From Candidatus Staskawiczbacteria bacterium RIFCSPHIGHO2_02_FULL_42_22 (GTDB taxonomy: Bacteria > Patescibacteriota > Minisyncoccia > Minisyncoccales > Staskawiczbacteraceae): DNA of 39,554 nucleotides. The DNA lies in the NCBI GenBank assembly GCA_001820175.1, contig MHOT01000022.1:1-39554 (forward strand). Reading direction: 5' to 3'. A model generated the notes under the pieces. The model had not been told where the DNA came from. It made no database searches and saw nothing but the letters and a program-made list of their open reading frames with translations. How positions within the stretch are numbered: the first letter of the stretch is position 1; each line of letters starts with the position of its first letter. The position numbers were made by a program, and so were the translations under genes. Of the stretch, positions 35,916 to 39,452 are shown piece by piece.

Positions 35916-35997
35916 CGTCATTGCGAGGAGTTCGCAAACGACGAAGCAATCTCGTCACCATTTACTAGATTGCCACGCCTGCGGGCTCGCAATGACG
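35916..35997. repeat. CGTCATTGCGAG-family palindromic repeat
   Basis: CGTCATTGCGAGGAG...GAAGCAATCTC...TAGATTGCCACG...CTCGCAATGACG. Confidence 0.85.
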
Positions 35998-36017
35998 ACG
36001 GGTGCGTAGATTTGGTT

Positions 36018-36300
36018 TTAATACGTTATTAGCGCTAAACAACCTCTGATACTTTGTTGCGTAGTTTCTATATTTAAATCCCGACTTCCGCTATGCAAAT
36101 TTACTTTTGCGTCGCCGGTTTGAAATTGTAAGCTAATAGGATTTTTTGAAATAACATTTCTGACATATTTTAATCCGTTTCCCCTGGCCTCCGGTTCCCG
36201 GCCGGAAACAATTTCGGTAAACGCCACTTCTACCGCCCCCTTGTGATCTTTCAGTTCCGGCCTTGATAAACATGCGGGCTCCGCAATCCGCGCGCTCCGA
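36018..36300 (-). pseudogene. 5'-truncated HATPase-like C-terminal segment
   Basis: KGAVEVAFTEIVSGREPEARGNGLKYVRNVISKNPISLQFQTGDAKVNLHSG; coding runs upstream into tRNA sequence with no credible start. Confidence 0.5.
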
Positions 36301-36321
36301 AATCCTTCAAATCGCGTTATG

Positions 36322-36360
36322 TGGACCTTGCGGGAATCGAACCCGCAACCTCCTTCATTG
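36322..36360 (-). tRNA. 3' half of an interrupted tRNA
   Basis: CAATGAAGGAGGTTGCGGGTTCGATTCCCGCAAGGTCCA, directly preceded by ATCGGGA insert terminus. Confidence 0.8.
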
Positions 36361-36498
36361 TCCCGATAACTTTGGTGGACCCTGCGGGAATCGAACCCGC
36401 ATCTCCTCATTGCAAATGAGGTGTGCTGCCGTTATACCAAGGGCCCACCAAAGTTATCGAGGATCCCGTATCAATTTACCGCAGTAAATTTATCGGGA
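36361..36498 (-). other. Insert I4 in anticodon loop: TCCCGAT...ATCGGGA, contains a complete tRNA-Ala
   Basis: Outer stem TCCCGAT/ATCGGGA; arm AAATTTACTGCGGTAAATT; GGATCC arm; TAACTTTGGT/ACCAAAGTTA stem carrying tRNA-Ala. Confidence 0.8.
36376..36446 (-). tRNA. tRNA-Ala (UGC), CCA encoded
   Basis: GGGCCCT...AGGGTCCACCA; anticodon arm CCTCA-TTTGCAA-TGAGG; T-arm GCGGGTTCGATTCCCGC. Confidence 0.92.
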
Positions 36499-36609
36499 CA
36501 AATGAGGCGCTCTAGTCCCGATTCACGATGATAAAATCATCGTGAATACGAGGACCCTCGTATGGCCACGGCCAAGCCGGGCCATCGGGGCCAATTGAGC
36601 TATGGGCCC
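36499..36609 (-). tRNA. 5' part of second interrupted tRNA (exons 36591-36609 and 36499-36515; D-loop insert I3 36516-36590)
   Basis: GGGCCCATAGCTCAATTGG + CTAGAGCGCCTCATTTG split by a CCCCGAT...ATCGGGA cloverleaf. Confidence 0.8.
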
Positions 36610-36668
36610 ACCAAAATATTCCGAGGATCCTCGTATAGTAAATTCATACCATGAATTTACTATCGGGA

Positions 36669-36780
36669 CAAATGAGGTGTGTCCCGATTGCGAAATTTAC
36701 ATTAAAAATTTTGCAATACGGGATCCCGTATCAATTTACCTATGTAAATTTATCGGGGCTGCCACTATACCACAGGCCCC
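36669..36780 (-). tRNA. 5' part of first interrupted tRNA (exons 36759-36780 and 36669-36681; D-arm insert I1 36682-36758)
   Basis: GGGGCCTGTGGTATAGTGGCAG + CACACCTCATTTG split by a CCCCGAT...ATCGGGA cloverleaf; followed by I2 (36610-36668). Confidence 0.8.
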
Positions 36781-36935
36781 GGTTTTAATTTGAAATTTAC
36801 AATTTAAAATTTGAAATCAATATTTGAATTTTAAATTACTAAATTTGAAAACATGACGTCGGGTTTCAATTATTTCAAATTCATTTATTTTTTTCGCCAG
36901 CAGGCGAATTGATTTCAAATTTCAAATTGTAAATT

Positions 36936-37388
36936 TCAAATTATCTTAAGTATCTTCACTTTCATCTTCTTATCCCGAATCTCATAGTTAAACTCTTGCC
37001 CCGCCTTTTTGCCCATTAATTGCTGGCCCAGGGGTGATTGATAGGATAACTTATTTTCCAAAATATTTGCTTCTCCTGGCGCGACTATTTCGTAGGTTTC
37101 TTTATCCTTATCCATCATAATAGTTACCATTGAGCCAATTTCCACTTTACCTGAATTCTTTTTTTCAATGATGACCGCATCATTAATGGCGTTTTCTAAT
37201 TCTTCGATGCGACGCAGTAACCAGGTTTTGCGTTCCCGGGCATCGTGGTAGCCGGCATTTTCTTTTAAATCCCCCTCCGCCGCGGCATATTTAATCAACT
37301 TAATATTTTCCGGGATTTTAACCGTTTTAAGTTCATGAAGCTCGTCTTTAAGTTTTTGAAGACCTTCTTTGGTAAAATACTGGCTCAT
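36936..37388 (-). CDS. greA: Transcription elongation factor GreA
   Basis: YFTKEGLQKLKDELHELKTVKIPENIKLIKYAAAEGDLKENAGYHDARERK. Confidence 0.95.
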   Translation of the reverse strand: MSQYFTKEGLQKLKDELHELKTVKIPENIKLIKYAAAEGDLKENAGYHDARERKTWLLRRIEELENAINDAVIIEKKNSGKVEIGSMVTIMMDKDKETYEIVAPGEANILENKLSYQSPLGQQLMGKKAGQEFNYEIRDKKMKVKILKII

Positions 37389-37514
37389 TTTTTATGGAAC
37401 ATGGAACATAAAACATGGAACAAAACTACGACGTCTTGTTATGTGTTCTATGTTATGTGTTATGTGATTTTCATCCTACTACAAATTCCGAAAAATTCAA
37501 GATCAGAATTTGCA

Positions 37515-37547
37515 AGAAAAAAGCCACGGTTTGGTGAAACGTGGCTT
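37515..37547 (-). terminator. Intrinsic terminator after tRNA pair
   Basis: Minus strand GCCACGTTTCACCAAACCGTGGCTTTTTTC. Confidence 0.85.
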
Positions 37548-37555
37548 AAGAAAAA

Positions 37556-37646
37556 TGGGGTGGCAGGGTTGAAACCCGCATACACGCTCGTTAAAGCGCG
37601 TCCCAGAGGTACCACTTCCTCCGGGCTCTAGTTGAGCTACACCCCC
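37556..37646 (-). tRNA. tRNA-like gene with extended variable arm (possibly tRNA-Pro)
   Basis: GGGGGTGTAGCTC...AGAGC; CCCGGAGG-AAGTGGTA-CCTCTGGG; variable hairpin ACGCGCT/AGCGTGT; GCGGGTTTCAACCCTGC; CACCCC. Confidence 0.6.
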
Positions 37647-37654
37647 AAGAAAAA

Positions 37655-37719
37655 CGCTGGCAATCGGCCCTGCCGTAAAGCAACGACTTACAAAGTCATC
37701 GCTTCGCCGATCGCCAGCG
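37655..37719 (-). terminator. Hairpin with nested hairpin between two tRNAs
   Basis: CGCTGGCGATCGGC / GCCGATTGCCAGCG followed by TTTTTC; inner GCGATGACTT/AAGTCGTTGC. Confidence 0.65.
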
Positions 37720-37721
37720 AA

Positions 37722-37811
37722 TGGAGCCGGCAGGAATCGAACCTACAACCTCCGGAACCGCTGAAACACCCGAAAGCGGAATCCGGCGCTCTGCCAATGA
37801 GCTTCGGCCCC
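37722..37811 (-). tRNA. tRNA gene with expanded anticodon/variable region
   Basis: GGGGCCG...CGGCTCC acceptor; GCTC/GAGC D-stem; GTAGGTTCGATTCCTGC T-arm; CCGGA...TCCGG with internal CCGC/GCGG hairpin. Confidence 0.7.
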
Positions 37812-37902
37812 TACCAAATCTTGAGTTAAAGAGCAAAAAAAGTGCTGGGCAATTGAATCCCCTCGTTTGAGGATTGCCCTCTCGCAAACCTCAAATTAAC
37901 TC

Positions 37903-38625: not shown

Positions 38626-39452
38626 ATTATCCTCTAGAAACATAGAGTTGATGTTCCCACCGTACGAGCGGATTTCCCGCATACGGCGAGCTCTAATGCA
38701 TTTTTTGCTTAAGGTTATAAATCTTAAGCAATCCAGAATCAGTCAAATGTTCTCCCATTTTTATCTTTTTCATTATTTCACAGAACAATTTGAAGTCTTT
38801 TTGTTTAGAATTAAACTGTAGCTTGTGTTGTGTAAAAAATGGGATGATAATTTTTTCTAAATCCTCACGATTTGTTACTTCAAAACGATAACAATTTTGA
38901 TGATTTATCCGTGTATCTTTTTGAAAATACACATTACCACAACCAAAATATTTTTTAAGCTCATACAAAATATGTTTGTCTTTTTCTATAAGCTTAATGT
39001 AAAATCTTGGTTCAACTTTAACTCTTCTTGTTAGTGGGTTATGCAAAGCTGGATTTTTTACATAGGCAGTGAAGCTTCCTTCACCATCTACTAATCCAAC
39101 CACGTAATCATTAGAGAGATTCCTTCGCATAAATATAATTTATGTTTAATATGAATCAGCTGACTTCTGACGCAGCGTTAGTAGTTTCAGTATACTACGT
39201 CAGATCTCCATGGGTCAATATAGTTTCTCTTCCTGGCATTACAACAGGGTTCCTTATGATTTTTCGCTATGCTCACCGCCTCATATCATAGCTCAAATCC
39301 CCTGGTTTTTATTTGCACTGCCATTTGCCTTCAGCCCTCCGGCGTTTACCTCGCGGTAATTCGCCTGCTGTTCAGCTACGCTTCCTCGAGTCTTAACGAG
39401 AAAGGAAAAGATTTTAACTTTTTAGATACTATACCTGCCATGCGCGTTTATT
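38626..39452 (-). other. Group II-like intron in 16S rRNA at C1399|C1400
   Basis: Domain V-like CGCCGTATGCGGGAAATCCGCTCGTACGGTGGG; CAGAAGTCAGC upstream of ORF; DVI-like hairpin; ends ...AAT. Confidence 0.8.
38693..39130 (-). CDS. LAGLIDADG homing endonuclease (intron-encoded)
   Basis: 145 aa; YVVGLVDGEGSFTAYVKN; RFEVTNREDLEKIIIPFFTQHKLQFNSKQKDFKLFCEIMKKIK. Confidence 0.92.
   Translation of the reverse strand: MRRNLSNDYVVGLVDGEGSFTAYVKNPALHNPLTRRVKVEPRFYIKLIEKDKHILYELKKYFGCGNVYFQKDTRINHQNCYRFEVTNREDLEKIIIPFFTQHKLQFNSKQKDFKLFCEIMKKIKMGEHLTDSGLLKIYNLKQKMH

Follow-up and report, generated by a model that had tools for sequence, protein, structure and literature searches.

tRNA introns are of the group I type in bacteria and of the bulge-helix-bulge type in archaea and eukaryotes. 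tRNA genes also host genomic islands (Islander, PMC4383910), large elements with a tyrosine integrase, for which a fragment restores the gene they enter. Two families of much smaller elements are palindromic: Rickettsia palindromic elements (RPEs, PMC10969869) are short and mobile and are also found in frame in protein genes, and REP dimers (PMC3733652) form two small tandem hairpins. In the literature searched, no report was found of an RPE or a REP that carries a tRNA. The sole paper on a "nested tRNA" that we found concerns tRNA-Sec inside selB, and a search of the open-access literature returned no published description of a bacterial tRNA nested in a tRNA. Judged on this literature and on general knowledge, tRNA-in-tRNA nesting in bacteria appears to be new.

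Here we analyse such a nest in a contig of a Candidatus Staskawiczbacteria genome (821 kb in 30 contigs, 95% complete). The window, i.e., the whole stretch of DNA analysed, is the complete contig C22, 39,554 bases long. On its minus strand, a palindromic insert (36498-36361) interrupts a tRNA-Ala between G35 and C36 of the anticodon and contains a complete tRNA-Ala(UGC) of its own (36446-36373). As with the Islander islands (PMC4383910), mobile DNA would split a tRNA gene, supply sequence that restores it and leave a displaced fragment behind, and a complete copy of the split target stands at the junction, since every nest that we parsed holds a complete tRNA of the same isotype. Unlike these islands, the nest element is only ~140 bases long and is located in the D arm or the anticodon loop, with the restored tRNA inside a hairpin arm; it has no gene except this complete tRNA, and the 138-base insert of the window accordingly lacks a tyrosine integrase. 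The insert resembles tRNA introns in that it occupies the anticodon loop and that its removal restores a tRNA, but it is not an Rfam ribozyme, does not use the usual archaeal site, holds a whole tRNA and is associated with outer genes that decay.

Results

Anatomy of the nested locus

The sequence-only reading of this DNA had proposed that a complete tRNA-Ala sits in the anticodon-loop insert of another tRNA gene, which was borne out both by ARAGORN and Rfam calls and by the recurrence of the arrangement in independently assembled genomes. The inner gene, tRNA3, was called by both programs (36446-36373/36376, anticodon TGC, 62.4 bits, E 2.4e-11). The insert around it, I4, is 138 bases long and has the ends TCCCGAT and ATCGGGA that had been described, read directly at 36498-36361, with the content TAACTTTGGT-tRNA-Ala-(ACC)AAAGTTA. 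In all, three tRNA-Ala genes (tRNA1, tRNA2 and tRNA3) are stacked at 36780-36320 on the minus strand, with a second, truncated nesting level at 36780-36499, outside I4. The parts are as follows (slashes mark junctions).

36759-36780, minus strand: acceptor and D region of tRNA1, the outermost tRNA-Ala, GGGGCCTGTGGTATAGTGGCAG; recognised by ARAGORN as tRNA-Ala(UGC) once joined to its own anticodon half and the 3' half
36682-36758, minus strand: J1, palindromic element without a tRNA, in the D loop of tRNA1, G/CCCCGAT...ATCGGGA/C (fold z -5.7)
36669-36681, minus strand: anticodon arm of tRNA1 up to G35, CACACCTCATTTG (ARAGORN reading of the joined gene)
36610-36668, minus strand: J2, an element in the anticodon loop of tRNA1, of which only the left part is present (read from the sequence)
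36591-36609, minus strand: acceptor and D region of tRNA2, a tRNA-Ala with a canonical D arm, GGGCCCATAGCTCAATTGG (ARAGORN on the joined gene)
36516-36590, minus strand: J3, palindromic element without a tRNA, in the D loop of tRNA2 (fold z -7.1)
36499-36515, minus strand: anticodon arm of tRNA2 up to G35, CTAGAGCGCCTCATTTG (ARAGORN on the joined gene)
36361-36498, minus strand: I4, palindromic element between G35 and C36 of tRNA2, its second hairpin capped by tRNA3 (fold; homologous inserts in other genomes)
36447-36457, minus strand: 5' flank of tRNA3, ATAACTTTGGT, pairing with sequence 3' of the tRNA (shuffle test)
36373-36446, minus strand: tRNA3, complete tRNA-Ala(UGC) with encoded CCA (ARAGORN, Rfam)
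36320-36360, minus strand: sole surviving outer 3' half, CAATGAAGGAGGTTGCGGGTTCGATTCCCGCAAGGTCCACA (joined-gene reading; homology of its downstream flank to G018, a genome of the same genus)

Joining the outer halves across I4 yields CTCATTTG/CAATGA, and ARAGORN recognises a tRNA-Ala(UGC) with either upstream 5' half. Taking out J1 and the anticodon insert restores GGCAG/CACACC and CTCATTTG/CAATGA, while removal of J3 restores TTGG/CTAGAGC. J2 consists of a first hairpin, the core ATACGAGGATCCTCG and then GAATATTTTGGT, which runs into tRNA2; its right end is missing from the locus together with the 3' half of tRNA1, a loss that would most simply be attributed to a deletion between the two 3' halves.

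Compared with shuffled sequence, the locus folds much better (z -10.8 for the whole locus, z -8.7 for I4, with 0 of 200 shuffles folding equally well as I4). In the folds of I4, J1 and J3, the element forms two hairpins in tandem, with a single bulged base in each. The three-arm insert that had been drawn earlier is another way to pair this sequence, one that folds less well than two tandem hairpins with the tRNA capping the second. The flanks of tRNA3 form 14 base pairs in all, including the element end (0 of 300 shuffles as stable), and the flanks of the inner tRNA paired in 17 of the 17 nests tested, with 12-31 pairs and 0 of 300 shuffles in each case. Leader and trailer of an inner tRNA thus form a single long stem that could obstruct RNase P.

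Nests occur across one class of Patescibacteria

Scans of named genomes and of 383 genomes of the class recovered tRNA-Ala nests in several lineages (Staskawiczbacteria G010, a congener of the window genome; Yanofskybacteria G217; Portnoybacteria G073; Giovannonibacteria G208; G141), as well as one Ala(CGC) and one Ala(UGC) nest in a single Patescibacteria bin (G004). The first scan demanded an Ala-like start and gave 25 matches, among which those outside Patescibacteria and one in Lloydbacteria look like chance matches in coding DNA. The idea that inserts are limited to tRNA-Ala was refuted by freer patterns, which revealed other isotypes. A pattern consisting of a T arm followed by the right element end, with the outer gene unconstrained, gave 15 matches, including 11 clear nests: Ala (the window, G412, G155, G358), Cys(GCA) (G253, G267, G143), Thr(CGT) (G107), Tyr(GUA) (G161), Gly(CCC) (G210) and Val(GAC) (G399). 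A pattern for a tRNA in the first hairpin added five Glu(CUC) nests (G336, G083, G147, G094, G132) and one Lys-like nest (G365). The Val nest (L177 in G399) lies beside its T-arm-pattern match; there, a Val(GAC) gene is nested in the D loop of another Val(GAC) gene via a different palindrome, of type TTGCCCC...GGGGTGAA. Because this palindrome carries a tRNA-Val, tRNA carriage extends beyond the TCCCGAT element. An empty palindrome similar to that of G399 was seen in a D loop at another locus (L131).

Altogether, ~25 further nests or remnants were found in one Patescibacteria class, involving Ala, Cys, Thr, Tyr, Gly, Val, Glu and Lys-like tRNAs. When the first of the freer patterns was applied to 263 genomes of other classes of the phylum, three matches were obtained, none of them a nest. 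These searches favour tRNA-carrying copies and would not capture a tRNA that an empty element had broken and that was rescued from another locus; one Cys array (L171) is rearranged and was parsed only in part. At two loci (L182 in G210 and L116 in G004), extra tRNA 3' halves follow the nest in series, as if left from earlier rounds of nesting.

This recurrence bears on whether the nest is a product of metagenome assembly, in which tandem tRNA repeats would have been collapsed or mis-joined. A genome in 30 contigs, a palindromic insert and a missing outer 3' half are what such an error could look like. However, the same architecture, with different sequences and the same junction logic, occurs in independently assembled Staskawiczbacteria, Yanofskybacteria, Portnoybacteria, Giovannonibacteria and another Patescibacteria bin, and in ~25 genomes in all, which makes an artefact extremely improbable. 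For the same reason, the nest is not a random local rearrangement: relatives carry either single tRNA-Ala genes or the same nest, and the simple tandem tRNAs that would have pointed to rearrangement were not encountered among them.

The inner anticodon equals the outer anticodon wherever the outer one is readable (it is lost in G141 and G161), even though the later searches left the outer gene unconstrained. Insertion sites are 35/36 in Ala, 34/35 in Cys and the D arm in Thr, Glu and Val. The hairpin that bears the tRNA is constant within an isotype across families, namely the second for Ala and Cys and the first for Glu.

Inner genes are intact while outer genes decay

Inner tRNAs are intact, whereas outer genes range from intact to ruined: ARAGORN recognised 13 of 13 inner genes vs. 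6 of 13 joined outer genes. Damage to the outer genes includes broken stems (the CGC nest of G004, G073, G267), further palindromes in the D and T loops (G010, G155) and loss of the 3' half (the UGC nest of G004, G217). In G008, a member of the window's genus, a complete tRNA-Ala is followed by the right element end only and then by a ruined 3' half, apparently showing nest decay at an advanced stage. Other palindromes, of type CCTGCCTGCCGGCAGGCAGG, were observed in the D and T loops or the anticodon stem of dead outer tRNAs at two loci (L091, L185), and the translation of this palindrome (PACRQAG/PAGRQA) also occurs within proteins of relatives.

If the insert were instead an intron or processed spacer, it would be removed from the RNA and the outer halves joined, one transcript giving two tRNAs. 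Exact removal does restore a recognisable tRNA in the window, G107, G143, G210, G399 and G412, but in 7 of 13 nests the joined outer gene, whose stems are broken or whose D or T loop holds extra palindromes, was not recognised, so that the outer tRNA is not generally kept functional as for a group I intron. The insertion sites noted above also differ from the archaeal 37/38 site. An Rfam scan of the window at gathering thresholds, complemented by a lax scan of 36280-37850, returned only tRNAs and chance matches, without a conserved group I core even under lax filters, and the same element is also found in frame within protein genes, whose translation can simply run through it. With many ruined outer genes and no ribozyme detected, the intron was dropped as the main reading, and we consider it very unlikely.

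In the window genome, tRNA3 was the sole Ala(UGC) gene found; the remaining Ala genes read CGC and GGC. Since no other Ala(UGC) was detected, gene content suggests that the inner gene is likely the source of Ala(UGC). tRNAs for Met, Asp, Asn, Tyr, Gln and Ile(GAU) went undetected in this genome, rated 95% complete; some of these may be interrupted and missed by standard tools. Elsewhere in the window, a tRNA-Arg(CCG) at 37722-37811 (minus strand) has an extra short hairpin of ~20 bases in its anticodon loop, with another, uninterrupted Arg(CCG) on contig C10 of the same genome. A tRNA-like sequence at 37564-37646 (minus strand), which ARAGORN did not call and whose D region contains the hairpin CCCGGAGG...CCTCTGGG, is possibly another decayed or interrupted tRNA. 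Finally, an ORF for a LAGLIDADG_1 endonuclease (38693-39130, minus strand, E 3e-18) is found near the 16S rRNA segment at the end of the contig, probably inside an intron of the 16S gene.

Origin of the inner and outer genes

Relatives carry a single tRNA-Ala beside greA. Because the 3' flank of the window's outer gene is homologous to the downstream flank of this single tRNA-Ala in G018, the outer gene appears to occupy the ancestral position. Across 13 nests, the identity between outer and inner gene is 60-82%, and some of these nests have an outer gene with complete stems (G107 Thr, G399 Val, G412 Ala). Since this holds even for well-formed outer genes, the identities indicate that the inner gene is not a copy of its outer gene. 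Simple tandem duplication was ruled out on the same grounds, inner and outer genes differing by 18-40% while some outer genes stay well formed. The sequence CCTCATTTG/CAATGA, which had been cited as common to both genes, is indeed shared, but because both are tRNA-Ala(UGC) and not because one was freshly copied. Likewise, the earlier suggestion of a self-propagating arrangement holds in so far as re-nesting is seen (two levels in the window and, as there, two in the Glu nest of G083) and fails in so far as the inner gene is no fresh copy of the outer one.

The genes of the window are closest to different relatives: the inner tRNA to the single tRNA-Ala of G018, of the same genus (94% identical), and tRNA2, taken together with the 3' half, to that of G013 (89% identical). 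By sequence similarity, one locus thus seems to stack two tRNA-Ala lineages of one genus. In two Glu nests from different families (G083 and G094), the 3' arm is 95% identical and the inner tRNAs 78%; because of this discrepancy, arms and cargo would not always have a common history, and cargo exchange or gene conversion must apparently also occur. Reverse complementation of the 5' arm together with the first tRNA bases gives the 3' arm in G155 and G358, which suggests that one arm was copied from the other.

These observations bear on an alternative in which the tRNA never travels with the element. An empty palindrome would enter a tRNA gene, template switching at the hairpin during replication or repair would copy an intact gene from a sister chromosome or paralogue into its loop, and selection would keep only the rescued cells. 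Such capture in place accounts for isotype matching and for the absence of tRNA-carrying copies elsewhere, as our nest searches found no clear one away from tRNA genes (L194 being cut by a contig end). It also fits inner tRNAs of native type, such as the 94% match to G018, arms conserved around different tRNAs (G083 vs. G094), and the 3' arms of G155 and G358, which look like arm-to-arm copying. Against it, the identity of only 60-82% even with the well-formed outer genes of G107, G399 and G412 means that the inner gene was not copied from that outer gene, and the constancy of the tRNA-bearing hairpin per isotype across families suggests inherited or transferred units. Overall, we regard capture in place as unlikely, although far less so than an intron.

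A family of small palindromic elements

The pattern TCCCGAT...GGRTCC...ATCGGGA with free spacers matched in 9 of the 36 genomes of the window's family and the reversed-pattern control in 0 (per-genome copy numbers, being exact-pattern matches, are lower bounds). The two-hairpin elements share the core TCCCGAT...GGATCC...ATCGGGA; spacers differ between nearly all copies, and the arms are hypervariable yet self-complementary, with pairing at 190 of 228 arm/spacer positions (mean 79.5 and maximum 108 in 10,000 shuffles). Among the 15 copies outside tRNAs that were compared, a purine precedes the element in 14 and a pyrimidine follows it in 14 (R/element/Y). No target-site duplication was present at the tRNA sites or at these 15 copies, so that the flanking direct repeats typical of MITEs are absent. 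This lack of duplication suggests, without proof, a single-strand, hairpin-dependent transposition.

Five copies without a tRNA lie in frame in genes whose products match Pfam families (DnaG, AlaRS, a PIF1-like helicase, FolD and TsaE). By its behaviour the TCCCGAT element would be a small mobile palindrome like the Rickettsia elements (PMC10969869), a likeness that is drawn from their description and lies in this in-frame insertion into conserved coding genes. Unlike RPEs, its arms are hypervariable instead of a conserved peptide-coding sequence, and some copies carry a tRNA. With REP dimers (PMC3733652) it shares the two small tandem hairpins and possibly single-strand transposition, whereas its ends lack the GTAG or CGTC tag of the palindromes associated with RAYT, and TCCCGAT does not occur in that paper. 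In contrast to RAYT systems, the Y1 transposase (PF01797) was not found in the window genome (G000); it was also absent from G008, another element carrier, and present in 24 of the 36 family genomes. Mobilisation by RAYT is ruled against by this absence from the window genome despite presence in most of the family. A separate palindromic repeat, CGTCATTGCGAG...CTCGCAATGACG, occurs at 35917-36000 of the window and resembles the CGTC-tagged REPs of PMC3733652; at two other loci (L053 and L054), the TCCCGAT element adjoins or sits within a repeat of this type.

Discussion

We favour, with moderate confidence, the explanation that a tRNA gene is split by a mobile two-hairpin palindrome, which provides a replacement of the same isotype, and that the outer gene then decays. 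It builds on features observed directly, i.e., the anatomy of the nests, the isotype match, intact inner and often decayed outer genes, repeated nesting, and copies without a tRNA elsewhere. The original functional tRNA gene would be the outer one, split by the element, and the cell would survive with the inner tRNA taking over translation. The outer halves would then decay, be invaded by further palindromes and be lost, leaving a replaced tRNA gene, and a new insertion into the inner gene could restart the cycle, as the window suggests. Several points speak against an element that travels with its tRNA: no transposase was identified, PF01797 being absent from both the window genome and G008; the inner tRNA of the window, 94% identical to that of a member of its own genus, is not simply foreign cargo; and the paired stem around the inner tRNA could impair its processing. 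Taken by themselves, the facts on the origin of arms and cargo are compatible with both a tRNA that travels and capture in place, of which we prefer the first.

It is possible, although we put this forward only tentatively, that these elements are homing palindromes of Patescibacteria, each lineage bound to one isotype and one site, which move a working tRNA between species and split and replace the resident tRNA. If so, repeated rounds would drive turnover of tRNA genes.

A travelling element of this kind would show a new way in which mobile DNA without genes of its own can persist in an essential RNA gene, i.e., to break the gene and bring the replacement. It would also provide a concrete mechanism for the turnover of tRNA genes in reduced genomes, and account for split tRNA-like debris that annotation programs overlook. 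The nests further raise a testable question, namely how processing deals with a tRNA enclosed in an uninterrupted hairpin, and with an isotype match across about eight kinds of tRNA, the choice between homology-guided insertion and selection becomes a testable one.
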